Below, piece by piece: positions 950 to 25,534 of a DNA stretch of 25,893 nt. Source of the DNA: a virus; the IMG/VR virus record IMGVR_UViG_3300049927_000107, positions 1 to 25,893 of that record. One strand, written 5' to 3'. Below the pieces are notes generated by a model that was not told where the DNA came from, ran no database searches, and worked only from the letters and a program-made list of their open reading frames with translations. Position 1 is the first letter of the stretch, and each line of letters begins with the position of its first letter. The translations under genes and the position numbers were made by a program.

Positions 950-1873
950 ATGACTGCGCCCATCCGATGGGACGGCAGACCGATCACGGCTGACGGCTGG
1001 TATGATCGCGTCCCGCTATCCACCTACCACTCATCAAAAATCACCGTCGGGCCGTCGATCTCGTCGAGCGGGTTGCGGTTGCTTTGGTCCAAATCGCCGA
1101 AGCATTTTTACGCGAAATGGCCGGGTAATCCGAACCGCGACGAGATCGCCGAGGAGGAAAGCCAGGCGTTCTTGCTCGGCCGCGCCGCGCATCATCTCTT
1201 CCTCGGCGAGGATGATTTCTCGCTGCAGTTCATCGAACGGCCCGCGAAGATTGCCGGGCTAGACTGGCATGGCAATCGGACGGAATGCAAGGCATTCGTG
1301 AAACAGCAGGCGCAGCTCGGCCGCACCGTGCTGACGCCGAACGATATCAAAACCATCCGAGGCATGGCGCGGAGTCTCGCCGAGGAACCGCTGGCGGTCG
1401 ATCTGCTGCAGGGCGCGGTTGAGCAAACCCTGATCGCGCAGGACCCGGACACCGGCATCTGGCTTCGGGCGCGGCCGGACGTGATGCCGTCGTCGGACGG
1501 CATGTTCGCCGATCTGAAGACGACGCCGAGCGTACTCGATATCGATCTGAAGCGGACGCTGCGGGACTACGGATATCATCAGCAAGGCGCCGTCATTTGG
1601 CAGGTATGCGAACTGCTCGGGCTGCCGTTCGATGGCTTTGTGCTGATCTTCATCGAAAAGAAATCGCCGTTCTGCACCCGCATCGTCGAGTTGACGGATG
1701 ACGACCTCGGTCGTGGCAGGTTGCAGAACATTGCCATGATGCGGCGGCTCAAGAAGTGCATCGACAGCGGCGCTTGGCCCGGGCCTGGCAAGCACGATGC
1801 AGAGTTCTTCTCAATGCCGGCATCGGAACAGGAATTCATTGATCTGCGGCTGCGCGAACTGGAGGCGGCGTGA
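950..1873 (+). CDS. PD-(D/E)XK phage exonuclease, RecE/DUF3799-like
   Basis: 307 aa. It probably degrades one strand of duplex DNA to make the single-stranded substrate for the adjacent RecT annealase. Signatures seen: G-R-A-A-H-H-L-F-L near residue 82 (the conserved N-terminal histidine helix); R-A-R-P-D-V-M-P near 172 followed by F-A-D-L-K-T-T near 187, giving the D...(x)LK catalytic core; and Y-H-Q-Q-G-A-V near 212, the Q-motif of RecE/AddB-like PD-(D/E)XK nucleases. Length suits the C-terminal nuclease domain of RecE-type proteins (PDDEXK-like, DUF3799). The RecE-RHH-RecT order with overlapping ends supports the role. The start has only a weak ribosome binding site. Its 3' end abuts the next ATG. 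Confidence 0.85.
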   Translation: MTAPIRWDGRPITADGWYDRVPLSTYHSSKITVGPSISSSGLRLLWSKSPKHFYAKWPGNPNRDEIAEEESQAFLLGRAAHHLFLGEDDFSLQFIERPAKIAGLDWHGNRTECKAFVKQQAQLGRTVLTPNDIKTIRGMARSLAEEPLAVDLLQGAVEQTLIAQDPDTGIWLRARPDVMPSSDGMFADLKTTPSVLDIDLKRTLRDYGYHQQGAVIWQVCELLGLPFDGFVLIFIEKKSPFCTRIVELTDDDLGRGRLQNIAMMRRLKKCIDSGAWPGPGKHDAEFFSMPASEQEFIDLRLRELEAA

Positions 1874-2049
1874 TGGATAAGCACTCTGAGGATATTATTC
1901 TTCATGTCCCGGCGAAACGTGAACTGGCCGATCGCGTGGATGTATGGCGATCGACGATGGAAATTATCCCATCTCGGGCAGCGGCATTGCGCTACCTGCT
2001 TGAACTTGGCCTCAAAGTGGTCCTGAAAAAACCGAAGGGGCAAAATTGA
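1873..2049 (+). CDS. Small ribbon-helix-helix-like protein
   Basis: 58 aa, ATG 1873 to TGA 2047-2049. An initial beta-like stretch (D-I-I-L-H-V-P) precedes helices ending S-R-A-A-A-L-R-Y-L-L-E-L-G-L, which resembles Arc/CopG-type ribbon-helix-helix proteins. It is wedged between the nuclease and RecT genes: its ATG touches the nuclease stop and its TGA overlaps the RecT ATG (TGATG), so translation is coupled. It may regulate the recombination operon; the fold is inferred from pattern only. Confidence 0.65.
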   Translation: MDKHSEDIILHVPAKRELADRVDVWRSTMEIIPSRAAALRYLLELGLKVVLKKPKGQN

Positions 2050-2918
2050 TGGCGTTTGACGTCAATAAAATCGAAGAGCGGATCGACAAGGTCGTCACGG
2101 GCGGCATCGAACTGAACGATGAAGGTTCCGGCATCGCGATCAAGCGCCTGATCGACGCGATGGAGGTGGCAAAACTGATGTCGATCTCCGGCCCGGCGGT
2201 CCCGCAGTTCATGCAAGGCCAACCAGGCATCTGCTACGCCTGCGTGGTGCGCGCGGTGCGCTGGGGCATGGACCCGTTCTTTGTCGCCGAGCAGAGCTAT
2301 CTCGTCAAGAACCCGAAGAACGGCGAGGAGAAGATCGCCTTTATGGCGCAGCTCGTCGTTGCAGTTATCAACGCGCGCGCGCCGCTGCAGAAGAAGCTCT
2401 GGGCCGTCTATTCCGGCGAAGGCGACGCCATGAAGGCGACGGTCTATGGCTTGCCGAAGGGCCAGACCGAGCCGCTGGACTACGAAACCCCGACGCTGAA
2501 AGAGCTGATCGCGGTCAAGGGTCGCAACGAGTACGGCAAGGTCAAGGGCTCGCCGCTCTACGATACCGACGCCAAGCAGGCGCTTTGGTACTACGGCGCG
2601 CGCGGGTTCTGCCGGCGGCATTTCCCCGAGGTCCTGGCCGGCGTTTACGATATCGACGAGTTCGAACCCGTCGAGCCGAAGGACGTCACGCCGGGGCGCG
2701 GCACGCTCGCGCAGCGCCTGAAGGGACAAAAACGAATTGCGTCATCGCGCGGGTTCGACGCCGCGCATGTCGAGCGCGAGACGCAAAAGGATGACTCGGC
2801 CGCGCTTACTCCCACGGCCGGGTCTGAGGCCGCGCCGTCCGAAACCCTCGCAGTGGTGGCGGGCGGCGCGGTACCTCTCAAGGAAGAAATCACCGTAGAC
2901 CAGGGGAACAGCGCATGA
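2049..2918 (+). CDS. recT: RecT-family single-strand annealing protein
   Basis: 289 aa from ATG 2049 (an in-frame TTG just upstream is less likely). RecT proteins coat ssDNA produced by a partner exonuclease and anneal complementary strands. Characteristic features: a central G-M-D-P-F-F-V-A-E-Q-S-Y-L-V near residue 75; I-A-F-M-A-Q-L-V-V-A-V-I-N; and S-P-L-Y-D-T-D-A-K-Q-A-L-W-Y-Y-G followed by R-R-H-F-P-E-V-L near 185, ending in an E-F-E-P tail. The C-terminal ~60 residues are low-complexity and polar, like the protein-interaction tails of phage annealases. TGATG overlap with the preceding gene and ATGA overlap with the next place it in a coupled operon. Confidence 0.9.
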   Translation: MAFDVNKIEERIDKVVTGGIELNDEGSGIAIKRLIDAMEVAKLMSISGPAVPQFMQGQPGICYACVVRAVRWGMDPFFVAEQSYLVKNPKNGEEKIAFMAQLVVAVINARAPLQKKLWAVYSGEGDAMKATVYGLPKGQTEPLDYETPTLKELIAVKGRNEYGKVKGSPLYDTDAKQALWYYGARGFCRRHFPEVLAGVYDIDEFEPVEPKDVTPGRGTLAQRLKGQKRIASSRGFDAAHVERETQKDDSAALTPTAGSEAAPSETLAVVAGGAVPLKEEITVDQGNSA

Positions 2919-3211
2919 CGCGCCAGCCTATTACCGTGGACAAGAATGTCGCGCGGCAGAAGAACAGCGCTTACCAAGTGCAGAAGGATGTCGCGTTGCC
3001 GCGTCGGCAGGCGATGTGGGCAATCTACCCATTCCTTGAAATGGAAGTGGGGGATTCGTTCGCCTTACTTAAAGGCGATCTGCTTGAGCGGGAAAGGGTG
3101 CGCGCCGCCGCATCTTATTATGGTATCCGCCATGCGCCGAAAAAATTCTCTATCCGCATCGCCGACCCGAGCGCCAACCCCAAGACCTATCGCTGCTGGC
3201 GGGTTTCATGA
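2915..3211 (+). CDS. Small conserved phage hypothetical (DUF7303-like pattern)
   Basis: 98 aa, coupled to recT by ATGA. The middle reads M-E-V-G-D-S-F-A-L-L, then R-A-A-A-S-Y-Y-G-I-R-H, then F-S-I-R-I-A-D and a closing R-C-W-R-V. That layout ('vG.SF....R...aa..yg.r...kf..R......rvWR') is common in small phage proteins near recT in proteobacterial phages, and I recall it as DUF7303-like. Function unknown. Soluble, basic, no membrane segment. Confidence 0.7.
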   Translation: MTRQPITVDKNVARQKNSAYQVQKDVALPRRQAMWAIYPFLEMEVGDSFALLKGDLLERERVRAAASYYGIRHAPKKFSIRIADPSANPKTYRCWRVS

Positions 3212-3218
3212 GGGCACC

Positions 3219-3377
3219 ATGGAATTTTTGATTGGATTTATTGTCGGCGCAATTGTCAGCGGTACCGTCAGCGCCATCGTCGTCGGCGCGCTGATGGTCG
3301 CGAAGCGCGCCGACCGCGACTATGAGAGCGAGTTGAATGAGCCGCAAAGTCGAAGAGTGGATCGGCAAGAACGATGA
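3219..3377 (+). CDS. Tiny single-pass membrane protein
   Basis: 52 aa from ATG 3219. Residues 3-27 are a glycine/valine-rich transmembrane helix (F-L-I-G-F-I-V-G-A-I-V-S-G), followed by a strongly charged cytoplasmic tail with K-R-A-D-R-D-Y-E and R-R-V-D-R-Q-E-R. It overlaps the start of the HNH gene by 41 nt in another frame. Weak ribosome binding site (AGGGC). Function unknown. Confidence 0.55.
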   Translation: MEFLIGFIVGAIVSGTVSAIVVGALMVAKRADRDYESELNEPQSRRVDRQER

Positions 3378-3711
3378 TGAGCCGGTACCGCCGAGGGTGC
3401 GGCTCCGGGTGTTCGACAGGTTCGGCGGCATCTGCTGCGAATGCGGGGCCAAGATCGCAGCCGGTCGCCGATGGGTATGCGATCACCGCCAGGCGCTCGT
3501 CAACGGAGGAGCGAACCGTGAATCCAACTTGGGACCGATCCATGAGGCCTGCGACAAGACCAAGACCGCCGCCGACGTTGCGGAGAAATCGAAAAATGCC
3601 CGGGTGCGCAGCAAGCATCTCGGACTGCGAAAACGAAAAGGACCACCAATGCCGGGCTCACGCAACAGCCGGTACAAACGGAAAGTTGGCGGCGGATTCG
3701 AAACGAGATAG
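3337..3711 (+). CDS. HNH endonuclease
   Basis: 124 aa. The HNH core is clear: C-C-E-C-G near residue 34 (zinc ligand pair), C-D-H-R-Q-A-L near 48 (first His), N-G-G-A-N near 56, then S-N-L-G-P-I-H-E-A-C-D (third His and closing Cys), completing a Cys4-type zinc HNH motif. The C-terminal third is very basic (K-R-K-G-P-P, S-R-Y-K-R-K). Phage HNH enzymes nick or cut DNA, often in packaging or recombination; here the position next to recT suggests recombination or replication. The stop codon (3709-3711) is followed with no gap by the first pentamer array. Confidence 0.85.
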   Translation: MSRKVEEWIGKNDDEPVPPRVRLRVFDRFGGICCECGAKIAAGRRWVCDHRQALVNGGANRESNLGPIHEACDKTKTAADVAEKSKNARVRSKHLGLRKRKGPPMPGSRNSRYKRKVGGGFETR

Positions 3712-4066
3712 CGCCACTGCACCTCACCACACTGCACGTCACTGCACAACACCGCACGTCACGCCACACCACCTCATGACACCGCATGACAAGCCACATC
3801 ACAACACCGCATGACACAGCACCTCGCTTCACAACACCGCACAACCCATCACGGCACGGCCCGGCATAACACGGCATATCACTTCATATCACCACATGCC
3901 ACCTCATATCACCACACAACACGCCACGCCATCACACCACGCTTCATGGCACGACACTACACCGCATGACACGACACCACATGGCACTCCATGTCACCGC
4001 ACCGCACTACACGGCACTTCATAACACTTCACCTCACACCACCGCACTGCACACCATGTCACCGGA
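3712..4066 (+). repeat. Phase-locked degenerate pentamer array 1, (YNNCA)71
   Basis: 355 bp divide without a single phase slip into 71 pentamers. 66 end in CA and all but one start with C or T; positions 2-3 vary freely (for example ctgca, cgtca, caaca, tatca, cggca). Off-pattern units: cctcg 3822, caacc 3842, cggcc 3857, ccacg 3937 and the last, ccgga 4062; agcca 3792 is off at position 1. The array starts at the first base after the HNH stop and its last unit supplies the GGAG ribosome binding site of the next gene. The plus strand is A/C-rich and G-poor. Strict CNNCA repeats cannot encode a stop in any forward frame. Not a CRISPR array and not a simple microsatellite. Confidence 0.95.
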
Positions 4067-4074
4067 GATCATAA

Positions 4075-4644
4075 ATGTACCGAGCCATCGTCACCCTTCG
4101 CGGCGTCGCGCCGCTCTCGCAGTCGAAGCAGCACTACACTGAGTTTCTAGACGGCGAGTCTCATGAAGAGCTGGACCGCCGCACATGGAGGGAGAAATGC
4201 AACTACGACGACAAGGGCATCGTCTACATCCCCGCGATGGCGTTCAAGCAGGCGATGGACAGCGCCGCGAAGCGGCTGGCGATCCCGGACCCAGACAACA
4301 AGCGCGCCAACCTAACCAAGTATTTTGTCTCGGATGTGATCTGCGAGAACAACCTGTCGATCGGCATCCACAAGGACAAGATGCCGTTCATCACGATCAG
4401 CGCGAATGTCGATGGCGTTCGCGGGTCTGGCAAGCGTGTGCCGCGCATCTTCCCGCAGGTACCAGATTGGAGTGGCGACACCAGCTTCCTGATCATGGAG
4501 GAGAAGATCAAACAGGACATTTTCCAGAAGGTCTTGGTAACGGCCGGGCGCTCGATCGGCGTCGGCCAGTTCCGGCCGGAGAAGGGCGGGCTCAACGGCA
4601 GATTCGAAATCGTCAAGATCAAGTTCGAGAAGATCGTGGTTTAG
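4075..4644 (+). CDS. Phage hypothetical with RAMP-like Gly-rich C-terminus, flanked by pentamer arrays
   Basis: 189 aa. N-terminus V-T-L-R-G-V-A-P-L-S-Q-S-K, a beta strand followed by G-x-x-P-L as in RAMP/Cas7-like ferredoxin folds. Near residue 58 there is I-P-A-M-A-F-K-Q-A-M-D-S-A-A-K, a helix after a strand. The C-terminus carries A-G-R-S-I-G-V-G-Q-F-R-P-E-K-G-G near 160-175, then N-G-R-F-E-I-V-K-I. I recall a widespread phage family of unknown function with this 'G.G.fRPe.gG..GRF' ending. Seen: the motifs and the array flanks on both sides. Inferred: an RNA- or ssDNA-binding protein, possibly acting on the arrays. The start at 4075 follows CCGGAG, donated by array 1; the stop at 4642-4644 is followed directly by array 2. 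Confidence 0.8.
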   Translation: MYRAIVTLRGVAPLSQSKQHYTEFLDGESHEELDRRTWREKCNYDDKGIVYIPAMAFKQAMDSAAKRLAIPDPDNKRANLTKYFVSDVICENNLSIGIHKDKMPFITISANVDGVRGSGKRVPRIFPQVPDWSGDTSFLIMEEKIKQDIFQKVLVTAGRSIGVGQFRPEKGGLNGRFEIVKIKFEKIVV

Positions 4645-4829
4645 CTGCACTGCACGACACAACACAGCATGGCACAACACTACACTTCACCTCACATCAC
4701 GACGCGGTATGCCACTTCACGACACGACATTGCACTACACGGCACGACACTTCGTAACACTGCACTGCACTGCACGCCACTGCATACCATGTCACTTCAC
4801 ACGACGGCACTTCACAACACAACACCAGG
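4645..4829 (+). repeat. Phase-locked degenerate pentamer array 2, (YNNCA)37
   Basis: 185 bp, 37 consecutive pentamers with no phase slip, 32 ending in CA. Off-pattern units: cgacg 4700, cggta 4705, cttcg 4750, cacga 4800, ccagg 4825. As in array 1 the first unit abuts a stop codon and the last unit runs into the AGGAG ribosome binding site of the following gene. Strand polarity is the same as in array 1. Confidence 0.95.
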
Positions 4830-4837
4830 AGCACTCA

Positions 4838-5308
4838 ATGCCAATGACCTTCGAACGATCGGCCGACACCGACGCCGTCATCGTTGCATTGCGCGGCTGC
4901 AATAACGAGATTTCATACAAGGATATGGCCAAGCACGCCGGTCTCACCTTGCTCCGCGCCAAGCAGGTGCTGCCGTCGGCGAGGCGCGCGCTGCGCGCTG
5001 AAAACGGGGTGCTGTTCGGGGTTATCAGGGGCGAGGGACTTCGCCGGCTGACCGACGCCGACAAGGTCAAGAAGCCGGAGGCGTTCAAGAAGCGCGTCTT
5101 CCGTGGCGCTGGCCGCGAGATCAAGGACCTCGGAACGATCAGTTATGACAATCTTTCAAAATCCGACCAGCACAGCGTTACGACCAACCGCACGGTGCTC
5201 AACGTCATCAGGCAGCAGGCGACCGTGAAGCCAGAGCCGCCGAGAACCATCATCGCGGCGCAGCCGATGGCGAATATCGAAAAGCTGATTCCGAAAGCCT
5301 CAACCTGA
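4838..5308 (+). CDS. Putative winged-helix phage protein
   Basis: 156 aa from ATG 4838, chosen because AGGAG lies 6 nt upstream; the frame stays open far upstream only because the pentamer array contains few stops. Residues 12-50 read like a small DNA-binding domain (E-I-S-Y-K-D-M-A-K-H-A-G-L, then L-L-R-A-K-Q-V-L-P-S-A-R-R-A-L), followed by V-L-F-G-V-I-R-G-E-G-L as a wing. The C-terminal half is basic and polar with S-V-T-T-N-R-T. Resembles conserved hypotheticals of rhizobial phages; exact role unknown. Confidence 0.75.
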   Translation: MPMTFERSADTDAVIVALRGCNNEISYKDMAKHAGLTLLRAKQVLPSARRALRAENGVLFGVIRGEGLRRLTDADKVKKPEAFKKRVFRGAGREIKDLGTISYDNLSKSDQHSVTTNRTVLNVIRQQATVKPEPPRTIIAAQPMANIEKLIPKAST

Positions 5309-5314
5309 ACGGCG

Positions 5315-5506
5315 ATGACGAAAATCAAGCGGCATTTTTCGAAGAAGAAGATCAACGACGCCGAACTGAAGCGGTTATGGCCGTCACGACTAACAGACGC
5401 TGAACTGGCGAAACGGCTAGGTCATCACCCATGGGTCTTGCGCCGCCGCGTCGTCAAGCTCGGTCTGCCGTCATCGCGACGCGAACTATGGGCGAGCCAG
5501 TCATGA
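5315..5506 (+). CDS. Small helix-turn-helix protein
   Basis: 63 aa. A basic N-terminus (K-I-K-R-H-F-S-K-K-K) is followed by an HTH: L-T-D-A-E-L-A-K-R-L-G-H-H-P-W-V-L-R-R-R-V-V, the pattern of a sigma-region-4-like or MerR-like helix pair, then K-L-G-L-P. Its stop overlaps the next start (ATGA at 5503). Likely DNA-binding; target unknown. Confidence 0.65.
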   Translation: MTKIKRHFSKKKINDAELKRLWPSRLTDAELAKRLGHHPWVLRRRVVKLGLPSSRRELWASQS

Positions 5507-6551: not shown

Positions 6552-6965
6552 ATGAGAATCGCTGGCCTCCCGGTCGTTGATGCACCGAAGAAGCGCACGA
6601 TAACGATAACCGAAAGCGACGTTGAGAAAGGCAATACCAAGGACCCCGCGAAATGCGCGGCGGCGCAAGCTCTCTTGCGTGAGAAAGACTGCACCGAGGC
6701 GCGGGTTCATATTGGCCGCACCTATCTGAAGATTGGCAAGAAGTGGGTTCGCTATCATACGCCAGAATCGTTGCGCGGAGAGATCATTTCGTTTGATCGC
6801 GGTGCCATGTTTCAGCCGGGTGAATACACGCTGACACCAATGCAGCCGACCAAGAGAGCCACCGGAAAGGCGCAAGGCAGCCCCACACTGAAGAAGAAGG
6901 TTACAAACCCGCGCGCCAAGCCGCACGTCGTCTATGGGGTCCGGTCGCATGGGGCCAATCGATGA
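6552..6965 (+). CDS. Conserved phage hypothetical
   Basis: 137 aa. The N-terminal strand reads K-K-R-T-I-T-I-T-E-S-D, the core reads C-T-E-A-R-V-H-I-G-R-T-Y-L-K-I, then K-W-V-R-Y-H-T-P-E-S-L-R and F-D-R-G-A-M-F-Q-P-G-E-Y-T-L. This core is familiar from rhizobial prophages and always sits beside the coiled-coil gene upstream. The tail is basic. The start follows one base after the previous stop. Function unknown. Confidence 0.75.
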   Translation: MRIAGLPVVDAPKKRTITITESDVEKGNTKDPAKCAAAQALLREKDCTEARVHIGRTYLKIGKKWVRYHTPESLRGEIISFDRGAMFQPGEYTLTPMQPTKRATGKAQGSPTLKKKVTNPRAKPHVVYGVRSHGANR

Positions 6966-7612
6966 AGACATTGAACGTCTCGATCCTCGGCATCCCGATT
7001 CCGGAGCGCATGAAGCGCCTGCCGATCTCCAGCAAGGGTTTCCCTGTTCCGTGGTTTGTAGCCATGGTCAACGGCAACTGGGACTTTCGGGTCATCGGCC
7101 CCGGCAAGGTCGATGGCGCGGTTAAGCGAAAGTTGTGTTGGCTCTGCGGCCAGCCGCTCGGCCAGTACCAGGTGTTCGTCATCGGCCCGATGTGCACAGT
7201 CAACCGCGTCAGCGCCGAACCGCCGTCCCATCTCGAATGCGCCGACTATGCGGCGCGGGCCTGTCCGTTCCTGACCAAGCCGGCGATGCGGCGCAACGAG
7301 AAGGACATGCCGGGGCAAGCCAAAGAACCGGCCGGCACCATGATCAAGCGCAACCCTGGCGTTGCCGCCCTCTGGGTCACGAAGTCGTATAGCCCCTGGC
7401 GGGTCGGTAATGGCGTGCCGTTCCGGATCGGCGACCCGGAGCGGGTGCTCTGGTTTTCAGAGGGCCGGACCGCTACCCGCGAGGAGGTGATGGCGTCGAT
7501 CTCGTCCGGCCTGCCGCTTCTCGAAGCAGAGGCGATGAAGGAGGGGCCTGAAGCCATGGAGGAGTTGGCGCAATGCTTCGCAAGATCGCAATCATTATTA
7601 CCATCGGCATAG
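6962..7612 (+). CDS. Conserved phage protein with putative zinc site
   Basis: 216 aa, ATGA-coupled to the previous gene. Near residue 57 there is C-W-L-C-G-Q-P-L-G, near 75 G-P-M-C-T-V-N-R, then P-P-S-H-L-E-C-A-D-Y-A and A-C-P-F-L, giving four to six Cys and one His spaced like a zinc-binding module. The C-terminal half has W-V-T-K-S-Y-S-P-W and V-L-W-F-S-E-G-R-T-A-T. I recall this as a conserved unannotated rhizobial phage family. The 3' end overlaps the next gene by 40 nt. Confidence 0.75.
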   Translation: MKTLNVSILGIPIPERMKRLPISSKGFPVPWFVAMVNGNWDFRVIGPGKVDGAVKRKLCWLCGQPLGQYQVFVIGPMCTVNRVSAEPPSHLECADYAARACPFLTKPAMRRNEKDMPGQAKEPAGTMIKRNPGVAALWVTKSYSPWRVGNGVPFRIGDPERVLWFSEGRTATREEVMASISSGLPLLEAEAMKEGPEAMEELAQCFARSQSLLPSA

Positions 7613-8115
7613 CAATAATTGCGGGCGGGGTGTTTTGCGCGGCTGGGCTTTTAACCCTACTCGAACTCACATGCCGAGCGCACTCGGCGCCATCATGCAT
7701 GAGCAAGGCCGAAGCGCGTCACGCCTTCGAGACATCGCATATCTACTGGCATGGCGTAAGCCATTGCTGGGACGCGACATCTCCGCGTTCGCGTCACGTG
7801 ACGCGTCACGCACCGTCACGTGACGATATGCACGATCGTCACGCCGCGTCACGCGCCGTCACGCCGATTCCGGAGGTTGACCAGCGGAAATTGGTGCTTG
7901 CAGTCCCGGAGCCAGAGCCGGCGACACCTTGGTCCGCTCGCTGGCCCGACATTGTTCAAGTCGGGCCAGGACCGAAGCATGTTGCCGTGCACAAGCCTGA
8001 TCCGATGGTCACCCCGCGCGACGTCGTCGCCGTGGTCCTGGTCGTCTTCCTGTCGATCGCGCTGGCCGAGGTAATATTCGACCGCAGTCGGCGTCCAAAA
8101 TTAGACTCCCTTTAA
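7573..8115 (+). CDS. Membrane-anchored protein with internal CGTCACG repeats
   Basis: 180 aa, start at 7573 behind GGAGG. Residues 4-32 form an N-terminal transmembrane or signal-anchor helix (I-A-I-I-I-T-I-G-I-A-I-I-A-G). Next come C-M-S-K-A-E-A-R-H-A-F and H-I-Y-W-H-G-V-S-H-C-W-D-A, which I recall from other rhizobial exported proteins. The middle (residues 74-96) is encoded by a CGTCACG-repeat stretch and is Arg/His-rich. A second hydrophobic helix lies near 150-168 (V-V-A-V-V-L-V-V-F-L). The two cysteines around the YWHG motif suggest an exported domain. Function unknown. Confidence 0.65.
   Translation: MLRKIAIIITIGIAIIAGGVFCAAGLLTLLELTCRAHSAPSCMSKAEARHAFETSHIYWHGVSHCWDATSPRSRHVTRHAPSRDDMHDRHAASRAVTPIPEVDQRKLVLAVPEPEPATPWSARWPDIVQVGPGPKHVAVHKPDPMVTPRDVVAVVLVVFLSIALAEVIFDRSRRPKLDSL
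7792..7863. repeat. CGTCACG repeat cluster with palindromes, inside a gene
   Basis: CGTCACG begins at 7792, 7804, 7814, 7837, 7847 and 7857, with exact 10-bp spacing in 7804-7814 and 7837-7847-7857. The perfect 12-bp palindrome CGTCACGTGACG occurs at 7792-7803 and 7814-7825. The 10-bp step places the copies on one face of the helix. CGTCA fits the CNNCA pentamer of the large arrays, but the phase is not kept. Confidence 0.75.
8092..8107. promoter_or_regulatory. TGTC-N8-GACA-type dyad, site 2
   Basis: CGTCCAAAATTAGACT, 14 of 16 matches to the consensus. It overlaps the last codons of the upstream gene and precedes the start at 8139 by about 30 bp. TTAGAC followed 18 bp later by TATAAG could also be a -35/-10 pair, so the dyad may overlap a promoter. 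Confidence 0.6.
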
Positions 8116-8138: not shown

Positions 8139-8378
8139 GTGCGTACCCGAATCCGGCGACAAAAGGGGATTGCTGTTCCACTTGATCCGAACGACCCCCG
8201 AAATTTGAAGCACCCATTGCATCATGAGCAATGGCTCGAATTGGCAAGGGCGCTTGGTCGACAGGATGCTCGGGAACGGTTTGAGCGAGAGAGAGGGCAC
8301 GCCAGCCATGAAACCGAAGACAGCAGCACTCTACGCCAGGTTCAGCTCCGACCTGCAAAAGGACCGAAGCGTCGATGA
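8139..8378 (+). CDS. Small hypothetical upstream of the recombinase
   Basis: 79 aa from GTG 8139, with AAGG about 8 nt upstream. After a basic N-terminus it reads V-P-L-D-P-N-D-P-R-N-L-K-H-P, then H-H-E-Q-W-L-E-L-A-R-A-L-G-R, then a charged helix. The 'DPNDPRN...P.H.eQWLeLARALGR' block is a pattern I have seen upstream of rhizobial recombinases. It overlaps the recombinase start by about 70 nt. Function unknown. Confidence 0.55.
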   Translation: MRTRIRRQKGIAVPLDPNDPRNLKHPLHHEQWLELARALGRQDARERFERERGHASHETEDSSTLRQVQLRPAKGPKRR

Positions 8379-10023
8379 TCAATTCGCGGTTTGCGAAACC
8401 TATGCAGTGCGCGAGGGGTTCGTGGTCACGCACCGGTTTTCGGATCGGGCAAAATCCGGAGCAAGCCTATTCGGCCGAGACGGTGTCATTGATCTGATGC
8501 TTGCCGCTAAAGAGCGCAAGTTCGACGTCATCATCGTAGAGAATTTTGAGCGCCTATCGCGCGATACCGAGGATTTGGCCGGACTGTTCAAGCGAATGAA
8601 ATTCGCCGAGGTAGCGCTCTACTCGGTTGCTGATGGTGCCGCCGATAACATGAAGGTCAGCCTGCGCGGGTTGCTCGGTTCTGAATATCTCAAGACTCTC
8701 GCGTCACAGGTGAAGCGCGGACATAACGGTCGGGTACGCGCCGGTAAATTTCCGGGTGCGGTGACCTATGGATATGATCGCGTGCCCGGTAACCCTGGCG
8801 AACGTGTCATCAACCAAGAGCATGCCAAAATTATCCGGCGGATTTTCACCGAATACGCCTACGGTATCTCGCCGCGAGAGATCGCCGCCGGGCTTACCCG
8901 CGATGGCATACCGACGCCGACTGGCGGCACAAACTGGAATCACCAGACCTTCGTCGGTGGCGGCGAAAAGAACGGTCTGATCGGCAACCGGCTCTATATT
9001 GGCGAGATTGTGTGGAACAAGAACCATACCGTCAAGGACCCAGACACGGGTGCTGCGAGCATCCGGAGGACTCCGATTGAGCAGCGCATCGTTACCCCGG
9101 TGCCCCACCTGCGCATCATCGACCAGAAGCTATGGGATGCGGCGCAGGCGATCCGCGAAGGCCGCTCGGTGGCGAAGTTCGGGCCGGGCGGGATGAAGGC
9201 GCGCGCCGTCGTCGCGCGCGATCAGCACCTGCTTTCTGGGCTGCTGCGCTGCGGTCAATGCATGGGCAAGATGATCATCACCAACAAGGCGCGAGGGTCG
9301 CAATTCGTCACCTGCGCAGCGGCGCACATGCGATCGGCTTGTCATCACCGCAAAAGCTACAATATTGATCGTCTGAAAGAGGACGTTCTCGACGATATGC
9401 GTGATAGCCTGCCTGATCTCGAATTCATCAAGGAGCGGGCAAAAACAGCGGCGCTCGAATATGCACGAATCCAGAAAGAGTCCAGCAATGAGCGACTGGC
9501 CGTCGAAAAGCAATACAACAAGGTCATCGTCCAGAGAGACCGGATCGTGCTTGCGATCTCCGACAGCGACGATTCAGTGCCCGCTCTGATGGATGCGCTC
9601 AAGGCCAAGGAAACCGAACGACTTGGACTCGAAGAGCGCCTGCGTCATGTCAATGCGGCAACCAATGTCATCACGCTGCACCCAGACGTCGTCACCAACT
9701 ATCGACAGACAGTCGAGAGCATGCATCACGCGCTGATGATCGATCCGGACAAGTCAGAGAACCGCGTTGCATTCCGCACGCTGGTCGATCATGTCGTTGT
9801 CTGGCCTACGGCCTACCGTGCGCCTTACAGGTTCAGCACCTATGGCAGGCTCTCGGCAATCATGGGCATCCGTCTCTTCCCGACAACGCGTTCCAATGAA
9901 GAAATCCTTGCAGAAGAAGGGATTACCCGCCCCGATATCGGCAACCAAGGTTTCTCCGGTTTGGCGCTATCGCAGCAACGAAATGGGCTGATCTTATTGG
10001 GCCGCTGGCGTGCCGCAGCCTAG
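8308..10023 (+). CDS. Large serine recombinase (integrase/resolvase family)
   Basis: 571 aa from ATG 8308. The in-frame ATG at 8224 is rejected because its extra 28 residues overlap the upstream gene and match nothing. N-terminal resolvase domain: A-L-Y-A-R-F-S-S-D-L-Q, with Ser13 of Y-x-R-x-S the catalytic nucleophile; then V-D-D-Q, and E-N-F-E-R-L-S-R-D near 85. The Recombinase domain spans about 150-280 (P-Y/G-Y-D-R-V-P-G, R-R-I-F-T-E-Y, G-N-R-L-Y-I-G-E-I-V-W-N-K). A zinc ribbon near 315-350 has L-R-C-G-Q-C-M-G and C-A-A-A-H...C-H-H-R. A coiled coil near 380-450 follows. This architecture belongs to phage integrases and transposon-type large serine recombinases. No directionality factor or att site can be assigned by eye. 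Confidence 0.9.
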   Translation: MKPKTAALYARFSSDLQKDRSVDDQFAVCETYAVREGFVVTHRFSDRAKSGASLFGRDGVIDLMLAAKERKFDVIIVENFERLSRDTEDLAGLFKRMKFAEVALYSVADGAADNMKVSLRGLLGSEYLKTLASQVKRGHNGRVRAGKFPGAVTYGYDRVPGNPGERVINQEHAKIIRRIFTEYAYGISPREIAAGLTRDGIPTPTGGTNWNHQTFVGGGEKNGLIGNRLYIGEIVWNKNHTVKDPDTGAASIRRTPIEQRIVTPVPHLRIIDQKLWDAAQAIREGRSVAKFGPGGMKARAVVARDQHLLSGLLRCGQCMGKMIITNKARGSQFVTCAAAHMRSACHHRKSYNIDRLKEDVLDDMRDSLPDLEFIKERAKTAALEYARIQKESSNERLAVEKQYNKVIVQRDRIVLAISDSDDSVPALMDALKAKETERLGLEERLRHVNAATNVITLHPDVVTNYRQTVESMHHALMIDPDKSENRVAFRTLVDHVVVWPTAYRAPYRFSTYGRLSAIMGIRLFPTTRSNEEILAEEGITRPDIGNQGFSGLALSQQRNGLILLGRWRAAA

Positions 10024-21408: not shown

Positions 21409-21606
21409 ATGAAACATTTGGAAGTTAAAAGGTTCTCTGCGGTATCGCGGCGGTTTTCGCCCGACATGGAGTTGCGCTGGCTACCTACAGTTAATGGGAA
21501 GGTCATTGTCGGCGGTGCAATCCCTTTTTCTGGATTTGATACTCGCGCCCAGGCGGTGGCTGCGGCGGGCGTCGCTGCATCGCCGGCATGTGAGGAACTG
21601 TCATGA
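21409..21606 (+). CDS. Small hypothetical coupled to resolvase
   Basis: 65 aa, with AGGAGG upstream. K-H-L-E-V-K-R-F-S-A-V-S-R-R-F, then E-L-R-W-L-P-T-V and F-D-T-R-A-Q-A-V-A-A-A-G-V-A-A. Its stop overlaps the resolvase ATG (ATGA at 21603), so both are made together. It may be an accessory factor; no family recognised. Confidence 0.6.
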   Translation: MKHLEVKRFSAVSRRFSPDMELRWLPTVNGKVIVGGAIPFSGFDTRAQAVAAAGVAASPACEELS

Positions 21607-22310
21607 TTCATGCGGTTGGCTACATGCGGACAAGCTCCGCGACGAATGTTGGGGAGGGCAAGGACAGCGAGCCGCGCCAGCGGGCGGCGATTAGCGCATA
21701 TGCGGAGAAGGCCGGGTATGTCATCGCTGAGGACGACTGGTATTACGACGCGGCGGTGCGCGGCGCTGACAGCCTTGATGCGCGGGAGGGGTTTATTGCG
21801 ATGCTGGCGCGGATTGAGGCGAACGGCGTTCGGACGATTATTGTTGAGACGGCGAACCGCTTTGCGCGGGATCTGATGGTGCAGGAGATTGGGTTTAAAA
21901 TGTTGAGGAAGGCGGGGATCGCGTTGATCGCCGCCGACTCCCCGTCGACGTTCCTTGACGATGGGCCGACGTCGACGATGCTCCGTCAGATACTCGGCGT
22001 GGTTGCGGAGTTTGAGAAGGCGAGCATGGTTGCGAAGCTGAAGGGTGCGCGGGATCGGAAGCGCATGGTTACCGGGAAGAAGGTTTCCGGGCGGAAGAAT
22101 TATGCGGAGATGCGGCCTGCGGTGGTTGAGCGGGCGCGGTGGTTTGCGGTGCAAGCGCACCCGGAGCGAACGAAGGCGATGCCGCATCGGGCGCTTTCCT
22201 TGCGGGAGATATCGGCGGCACTTGCAAACGAGGGGCATCTGACGCCGAGCGGCAGGCCGTATGCGCCGATGGCGGTGCGGTCGATGCTGCGGACGCAGCA
22301 GCAGCCTTGA
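21603..22310 (+). CDS. Small serine recombinase / resolvase
   Basis: 235 aa. G-Y-M-R-T-S-S-A-T-N, with the first Ser of Y-M-R-T-S as the likely nucleophile; E-P-R-Q-R-A-A-I; then I-I-V-E-T-A-N-R-F-A-R-D, the conserved resolvase block; E-F-E-K-A-S-M-V-A-K-L-K. The C-terminal part (L-S-L-R-E-I-S-A-A-L-A-N-E-G-H) is the HTH, followed by G-R-P-Y-A-P-M-A-V. It lacks the zinc ribbon and coiled coil of the larger recombinase at 8308. It could be an invertase or resolvase of a mobile element. No flanking inverted repeats were recognised. Confidence 0.85.
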   Translation: MIHAVGYMRTSSATNVGEGKDSEPRQRAAISAYAEKAGYVIAEDDWYYDAAVRGADSLDAREGFIAMLARIEANGVRTIIVETANRFARDLMVQEIGFKMLRKAGIALIAADSPSTFLDDGPTSTMLRQILGVVAEFEKASMVAKLKGARDRKRMVTGKKVSGRKNYAEMRPAVVERARWFAVQAHPERTKAMPHRALSLREISAALANEGHLTPSGRPYAPMAVRSMLRTQQQP

Positions 22311-24728: not shown

Positions 24729-24804
24729 GCTGCCTTAGCTCATCGGGTAGAGCGGCCCTTTCGTAAGGGGCAGGCGCGGTGTTCGAGCCACCGAGGCAGC
24801 TCCA
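24729..24804 (+). tRNA. tRNA-Thr (CGU)
   Basis: Acceptor GCTGCCT/AGGCAGC; D-arm GCTC/GAGC; anticodon arm GCCCT-TTCGTAA-GGGGC, anticodon CGT with normal U33; T-arm CGGTG-TTCGAGC-CACCG; discriminator T and encoded CCA. Reads ACG. Confidence 0.9.
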
Positions 24805-24845
24805 AAGGCCCTGTGTGGCCCCGAGCGTGGTCGGGGCAACTAATT

Positions 24846-24920
24846 GCCGGTTTAGTTCAGTGGTAGAACGCCGCACCTGTAATGCGGATGTCGCGGGTTT
24901 GATTCCTGCAACCGGCTCCA
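24846..24920 (+). tRNA. tRNA-Thr (UGU) with C33
   Basis: Acceptor GCCGGTT/AACCGGC; D-arm GTTC/GAAC; anticodon arm CCGCA-CCTGTAA-TGCGG, anticodon TGT with C at position 33 instead of U; T-arm GCGGG-TTTGATT-CCTGC, where C56 is replaced by T; encoded CCA. Reads ACA. Confidence 0.85.
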
Positions 24921-25064
24921 GATCGAGAGCCTGAAGGTAGTCTCGCAGAGATCGGGAAGATGCTGGTGTCGAATCCAGTCGGCCCTTCGGGGCTGTAGCT
25001 CAAGACAGAGCGTCCCGACGCATTCAGGGAAAGAACGAGGCGCCGGTCCGCGCCTACTCGTCAT
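24921..25064 (+). other. tRNA-like remnants or unassigned RNA
   Basis: 144 bp in the tRNA array without a complete cloverleaf. It contains a T-arm-like piece (CTGG-TGTCGAAT-CCAG near 24962-24977), a GCCC-TTCG-GGGC hairpin (near 24984-24995) and a D-arm-like TAGCTCAAGACAGAGCG (near 24999-25015). Possibly one or two decayed or very unusual tRNA genes. Confidence 0.35.
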
Positions 25065-25139
25065 GCTGCTTTAGGCCAGTGGTAGACCGCCTCTTTGGTA
25101 AAGAGGAAGTCCGGGGTTCGATCCCCCGAAGCAGCACCA
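25065..25139 (+). tRNA. tRNA-Thr (GGU)
   Basis: Acceptor GCTGCTT/AAGCAGC; D-arm GGCC/GACC with one mismatch; anticodon arm CCTCT-TTGGTAA-AGAGG, anticodon GGT; T-arm CGGGG-TTCGATC-CCCCG; discriminator A and encoded CCA. Third threonine tRNA in the array. Confidence 0.9.
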
Positions 25140-25140
25140 T

Positions 25141-25217
25141 GTGCGACTAGCCCAACTGGTAGAGGCGCCGGTTTCAGAAGCCGGAGGTTCGGAGTTCAAA
25201 TCTCCGGTCGCATACCA
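25141..25217 (+). tRNA. tRNA-Leu (CAG) with short variable region
   Basis: Acceptor GTGCGAC/GTCGCAT; anticodon arm CCGGT-TTCAGAA-GCCGG, anticodon CAG; only 5 nt (AGGTT) between anticodon and T stems; T-arm CGGAG-TTCAAAT-CTCCG; encoded CCA. Bacterial tRNA-Leu normally has a long variable arm, so identity by anticodon alone is uncertain. Confidence 0.8.
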
Positions 25218-25221
25218 ATTC

Positions 25222-25299
25222 GCCCGTGTGGCCAAAAGGCAAAGGCTACCTGCTCAAAACAGGTCGATGTGCGGGGTTCGAATCCTGCCACGGGCACCA
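25222..25299 (+). tRNA. tRNA-Leu (CAA) with short variable region
   Basis: Acceptor GCCCGTG/CACGGGC; anticodon arm ACCTG-CTCAAAA-CAGGT, anticodon CAA; variable region of 6 nt; T stem GCGGG/CCTGC around an 8-nt loop; discriminator A and encoded CCA. Again no long variable arm. Confidence 0.8.
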
Positions 25300-25300
25300 C

Positions 25301-25375
25301 GCGCCGTTAGCTCAGAGGAAGAGCGCCTGTTTTACACGCAGGATGTCGGGATTTCGAAATTCTCACGGCGTACCA
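25301..25375 (+). tRNA. tRNA-Val (UAC)
   Basis: Acceptor GCGCCGT/ACGGCGT; D-arm GCTC/GAGC; anticodon arm CCTGT-TTTACAC-GCAGG, anticodon TAC; T stem GGGAT/TTCTC with one mismatch around TTCGAAA; encoded CCA. Reads GTA. Confidence 0.85.
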
Positions 25376-25379
25376 ATTC

Positions 25380-25454
25380 GCGTCTTTAGCTCAGTGGTAG
25401 AGCGCCGCGTCGACATCGCGGTTGTCCGGCGTTCGATCCGCCGAAGACGCACCA
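25380..25454 (+). tRNA. tRNA-Val (GAC) with C33
   Basis: Acceptor GCGTCTT/AAGACGC; D-arm GCTC/GAGC; anticodon arm CCGCG-TCGACAT-CGCGG, anticodon GAC with C33; T-arm CGGCG-TTCGATC-CGCCG; encoded CCA. The rest of the molecule is canonical, which makes the C33 change stand out. Confidence 0.85.
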
Positions 25455-25459
25455 TTCAC

Positions 25460-25534
25460 GGCCCCGTCGTCTAGTGGCTAAGGCACACGCCCGATAAGCG
25501 TGGAAAGTCGGATCGTAACCGGCCGGGGCTACCA
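25460..25534 (+). tRNA. tRNA-Ile (GAU) with C33
   Basis: Acceptor GGCCCCG/CGGGGCT; D-arm around TAGTGGCTA; anticodon arm CACGC-CCGATAA-GCGTG, anticodon GAT with C33; T-arm GTCGG-ATCGTAA-CCGGC with an unusual loop; encoded CCA. Reads ATC. Confidence 0.8.

Follow-up and report, generated by a model that had tools for sequence, protein, structure and literature searches.

We report that a phage locus very probably encodes a VIPR system built on a CAY scaffold, in which the variable NN pairs of two pentamer arrays would act as guide bases against the DNA of rival phages. VIPR (Viral Interference Programmable Repeat), described in April 2026 in a preprint (PMC13142463), has been put forward as a noncontiguous RNA-guided system, possibly an ancestor of CRISPR. 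The DNA analysed here, a phage record of 25.9 kb from IMG/VR, is referred to throughout as the window; in it, vipr and the gene for a Vipr-accessory protein (vap) are interleaved with arrays of Y-NN-C-A pentamers (Table 1). The CAY scaffold, the covariation of Gln/Arg with A/G, the empty insertion site and the match to an HNH gene, all set out below, go beyond the main text of PMC13142463.

Table 1. Features of the predicted VIPR locus and its border in the window
Feature	Position	Strand	Description
HNH endonuclease gene	3337–3711	+	Pfam HNH, phrog_333; 3' end borders the cassette
VIPR cassette (array 1-vipr-array 2-vap)	about 3697–5306	+	absent from the syntenic sibling phage L307
Array 1	3712–4066	+	71 YNNCA pentamers, CAY/NN scaffold, uninterrupted
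Candidate guide	3807–3866	+	units 19–30 (0-based) of array 1; xNN, 1-nt skip
vipr	4075–4644	+	189-aa Cas7/Csm3-like RAMP protein; phrog_4652
Array 2	4645–4829	+	37 YNNCA pentamers
vap	4838–5308	+	156 aa, predicted winged-helix DNA-binding fold

Two uninterrupted pentamer arrays

The initial annotation of this DNA had counted 71 and 37 consecutive pentamers without a phase slip, and our recount confirmed both figures. CA ends 66 of the 71 pentamers of array 1, and 65 have the full form YNNCA; for array 2, which is a little less regular, both figures are 32 of 37. The overall count of 98 of 108 pentamers ending in CA was likewise correct and lies far above dinucleotide shuffles: in 2000 dinucleotide-preserving shuffles of each array's own sequence, in-phase CA reached at most 29 for array 1 (66 observed) and 18 for array 2 (32 observed). 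A pyrimidine occupies position 1 in 107 of the 108 units (C 86, T 21, A 1), as had been described. Positions 2 and 3 had been called free. Their usage is indeed near-random, with 15 of 16 and 13 of 16 dinucleotides in use; they would not be idle, being the putative guide bases that carry the information. No further pentamer array was found in the window when both strands were searched. A short CGTCAC-rich stretch at 7780–7866, within the ORF 7573–8115, is out of 5-nt phase and probably unrelated.

Each array begins at the base directly 3' of a TAG stop codon and runs into the next ribosome-binding site, in agreement with the annotation. The final units, CCGGA in array 1 and CCAGG in array 2, are already ribosome-binding-site sequence, so that 70 and 36 is a cleaner count than 71 and 37. 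Judging from a guide step of ~12 units, array 1 presumably holds about six 12-unit guides and array 2 about three. No break or recognisable 3' tail was seen in either window array. The sequence of array 1 is C-rich and G-poor, and its predicted RNA fold is no stabler than those of shuffles (fold z +0.6). Scans for promoters and terminators gave nothing above chance and no promoter-like site. A gathering-level Rfam search of the window and 11 relatives returned no hammerhead ribozyme, so hammerhead-interspersed VIPR arrays were not encountered in this set; in the window, Rfam found tRNAs only, eight of them clustered on the + strand at 24729–25531, near the right end of the record. CRISPR repeat-spacer structure, with identical repeats and unique spacers, was not found in the window.

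The proteins of the locus

The product of the gene between the arrays is a Cas7/Csm3-like RAMP protein related to SUSP1 Vipr, as judged from an AlphaFold model, a fold search and a family profile. The AlphaFold2 model has a pLDDT of 94.1, and in the fold search (Foldseek, VIA-align) type VII Cas7 and Csm3 chains ranked first, with Z up to 12.9 over ~160 residues; the search covered entries released by April 2026, 36pp not being among them. When a profile of 29 Vipr homologues was run against the PDB, the single relevant chain was 36pp_D, which is SUSP1 Vipr (E 7.7e-7), and a single-sequence phmmer search of a relative gave a weak match (E 0.04). Moreover, the annotated Pseudomonas phage LESphi2 encodes a protein 29.5% identical to the window Vipr, and upstream of its gene lie YNNGG arrays that carry hairpin-like tails, which is the published architecture. 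LESphi2 appears on these grounds to bridge the window locus and published VIPR. The annotation had pictured the arrays as a ladder for an oligomeric protein that contacts every fifth base, with TRAP as the known parallel. The ladder and its 5-nt step fit a VIPR RAMP protein binding pentamer-repeat RNA; the notion of a TRAP-like regulatory site does not stand.

Vap is 79% identical in L031, and vap homologues lie next to vipr in many related loci. The N-terminal part of the Vap model resembles a winged helix, and Foldseek gave a weak match (E 5e-3) to MarR-like DNA-binding proteins of this fold. Some VIPR types have vap proteins that bind DNA, and the predicted fold agrees with this.

The arrays accompany vipr and vary by whole modules

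In L031, which holds the closest homologue of the window Vipr (81% identity), arrays flank and separate the two corresponding genes, and their lengths and sequences are other than those of the window. The annotation had suggested a pattern search for in-phase YNNCA units. Run over IMG/VR with ten units and no protein information, it yielded 113 stretches and did recover arrays beside Vipr homologues: about 40 of the stretches encode a homologue adjoining the array, and the rest are mostly microsatellites, fragments and coding repeats. A protein-only search revealed pentamer-periodic arrays at 99 of 99 distinct loci, so that the arrays are tied to vipr; in the annotation, arrays found at random without association to the locus would have spoken against its reading. 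The density of the array pattern is 122 per kb within −500 to +800 of a vipr homologue vs 0.47 per kb far away. No homologue of the window Vipr was found in a search of plasmids.

Length variation among relatives also agrees with the annotation, which had predicted that arrays would not differ by indels indivisible by 5. Related arrays differ by whole modules: L123 is without exactly one 65-nt module, its arrays being otherwise identical to those of L130 and L126. Modules in clades of this type end in a constant stretch, ACGACACGACAACCGCTTTTC, of which no counterpart is visible in the window arrays, and array blocks in relatives comprise 10–15 units with constant ends. Modules appear to be gained and lost whole in these relatives. 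Among the richest guide arrays seen are those of L209, where ~14 CGY-type blocks around vipr (1459–4059) alternate with constant interruptions.

If the arrays were a decayed microsatellite expansion, the pentamer period would be accounted for, and some of the IMG/VR pattern hits are indeed plain microsatellites. We give this origin practically no credence: the NN pairs are near-random while Y1, C4 and A5 are kept in nearly every unit, and the linkage to vipr is found at every protein-identified locus.

An empty insertion site in a sibling phage

The window and the sibling phage L307 align collinearly over several kb, mostly at 87–99% identity. By blastn, window 3218–3695 corresponds to L307 10809–11283 and window 5307–5491 to L307 11288–11472, and the former HNH 3' end, GAACGGCGATGACGAA, is located downstream of vap in the window. 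No vipr was found in the whole 31-kb L307 record, which may be a fragment. This alignment shows what we read as an insertion of the cassette at the 3' end of the HNH gene, delimited by the vipr-less L307. In the window, the neighbouring genes encode HNH, RecT, exonuclease and DnaA-like HTH proteins; no cas genes were seen near the VIPR locus. Farther away, a large integrase-type serine recombinase (8224–10023, phrog_95) and a resolvase-like ORF (21603–22310) are encoded and, given these two serine recombinases, the record may contain a provirus end or two elements.

L307 carries recT but no vipr and no arrays, which bears on two alternatives that the annotation had left standing, a giant Rho-loading (rut-like) region and a substrate of RecA or RecT, as well as on a TRAP-like binding site. 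A C-rich, G-poor sequence with no more structure than shuffles, lying near a RecT gene, is what the first two would lead one to expect, but neither Rho nor RecT requires a strict 5-nt phase or a fixed partner protein, and the arrays follow vipr, not recT. Because of this linkage, such readings are already contradicted, and we hold them to be extremely improbable.

Guide decoding across the family

We compared the NN pairs of 451 arrays adjoining vipr in the family with related phage DNA (2.8 Mb, arrays masked), allowing skips of 0 to 3 bases between pairs and removing low-complexity cases before the skips were compared. With a skip of 1, six matches reached a score of at least 18, against 0–1 in each of three shuffles, the best scores being 23.0 and 22.5. 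Skips of 0, 2 and 3 gave no excess over shuffles after filtering. The family's arrays thus seem to follow a 1-nt-skip rule, under which a run of ~12 pentamers would guide to ~36 bp.

Several of the best targets lie within long reading frames, where the base passed over is the third of its codon. A guide of L246 matches one helicase-like gene in both L254 and L245, the copies of which differ largely at wobble positions. Another, in L245 (array 1356–1480), decodes to the conserved C-terminal codons FRPEKGGLNG of vipr in other phages, and L245's own vipr differs at some of the positions targeted. Decoded guides of L246 (array 9264–9343) and L254 (array 6808–6882) match one another's genes, an apparent case of reciprocal targeting.

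The position of the window arrays exactly between stop codons and ribosome-binding sites, uninterrupted and tail-less, and with no promoter of their own seen, could also suggest that Vipr coats its own polycistronic mRNA and so autoregulates the translation or stability of vipr and vap, with no DNA guiding. Such a cis-regulatory leader, however, would leave the 1-nt-skip matches between NN pairs and foreign coding sequence unexplained, and in relatives discrete modules with tails are acquired or dropped as complete units; we consider it quite unlikely.

A candidate guide against the HNH gene

Under the guide reading, one stretch of array 1 stands out. With a skip of 1, units 19–30 share 21 of 24 bases with the final codons of HNH in L307, RDSPFKAKIGGG (L307:11249–11284), directly at the cassette insertion site. 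When units were shuffled, 64 of 48,458 shuffles matched equally well or better anywhere in the 20-kb L307 locus (p 0.0013). Array 1's best match again falls on these units where the HNH genes of L314 (19/24) and L318 (17/24) end, as well as in the window's own HNH gene (20/24).

For none of the window guides did the searches yield a perfect target, and an exact IMG/VR scan for the HNH guide (10 units) returned none. Since there is no exact target and the other array segments are undecoded, the HNH stretch is regarded as a candidate target. A pattern scan of 397 genomes from the order of Methylobrevis, tolerating at most 3 mismatches, gave two hits where the control gave one, and these were attributed to chance. 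Decoded peptides of both arrays, in both orientations, gave nothing significant against PHROGs.

The arrays could thus be guides while the HNH match itself reflects coincidence, or ancestry without function, with no present target. The 3 mismatches to L307, the 4 to the window's own gene and the lack of an exact IMG/VR match favour this, and the database-wide chance expectation of a hit with this score would be ~0.05–0.1 for the window's share of units. It has to be set against the low p value at the sibling locus and the recurrence of the same 12 units as array 1's best match at HNH 3' ends in three further sequences. We regard this reading as a real possibility, if well short of an even chance.

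Proposed scaffold dialects and residue 165

Base 5 of the arrays belonging to 95 non-redundant Vipr proteins is bimodal, with A in some clades and G in others, and its label changes 15 times on the Vipr tree vs 39 in shuffles. Sister clades have CRY and GGY scaffolds; that of the window is CAY/NN, not GGY. The best-associated residue is at window position 165, in the G-loop GVG[Q/R]FRP, where the window protein has Gln. All 21 proteins with Gln165 have A5 and all 49 G5 systems have Arg165, the exceptions being 8 proteins of GGFYGRF subclades that combine Arg with A5, and 2 that have Ala. It should be noted that the four independent supported switches agree 3.8 times on average (p 0.125 at best) and are too few for the Gln/Arg covariation to reach significance. 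Residue 93 also covaries with the scaffold, being Asp in 39 of 49 CG systems and 2 of 31 CA systems.

The pairing of Gln with A and of Arg with G is what classical base readout would lead one to expect, and residue 165 may read the base directly. Tentatively, and with slightly less than even confidence, we propose that residue 165 reads base 5, that the dialects leave each other's guides unused, and that the cassette's guide targets the uninterrupted insertion site in siblings. This is a single-residue hypothesis for scaffold specificity; orthogonal scaffolds would also be of use in programmable repression.

Proposed mechanism and comparison with known systems

By extension from published relatives, the arrays would be transcribed, and Vipr subunits would bind the array RNA via its constant CAY bases, in steps of 5 nt. 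The exposed NN pairs would then read double-stranded DNA, one base being skipped per pair, so that ~12 pentamers form one guide for ~36 bp, mostly in coding frame, so placed that the skipped base falls on the wobble position. The outcome of DNA binding would be repression of competing phages' genes. One stretch of array 1 would decode to the HNH 3' end, which is the cassette site here and is uninterrupted in the VIPR-less sibling.

According to PMC13142463, the RNAs bound by Vipr contain 9–16 YNNGG pentamers, whose NN bases recognise double-stranded DNA and pass over one base per pair. The characterised vrRNAs, from type II clades, have 9–16 repeats plus a 3' tail; the scaffold is given as GGY "or a related consensus", GGY being the one tested biochemically, and array architecture is said to differ among types. 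The window resembles the VIPR systems of SUSP1 and P. fulva type II (PMC13142463) in its phage-encoded ~20 kDa RAMP protein, its pentamers of three constant bases plus variable NN, its accessory protein (predicted here to bind DNA) and the arrays flanking vipr, and its family shares the 1-nt-skip matches to other phages' coding sequence. It differs in having CAY instead of GGY, and in arrays that are unbroken (71 and 37 units) and tail-less where the characterised vrRNAs have short, tailed ones. The window locus would thus be a CAY version of VIPR with very long unbroken arrays. To the published picture the present analysis adds an empty-site comparison with L307 that delimits a VIPR cassette, and an independent statistical test that repeats the 1-nt-skip rule on other clades.

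Vipr shares its fold and a glycine-rich loop with the Class 1 CRISPR-Cas backbone (Csm3, type VII Cas7), and oligomerisation on guide RNA would be expected for both. The window, however, has no CRISPR repeats, no cas genes were seen near the locus, and its 5-nt step with a noncontiguous code differs from the 6-nt step of Class 1 systems. TRAP, whose fold is unrelated to that of Vipr, offers with its NAG repeats another regularly spaced RNA motif for an oligomeric protein; in the window, unlike in TRAP targets, it is the spacer bases that would carry the information.
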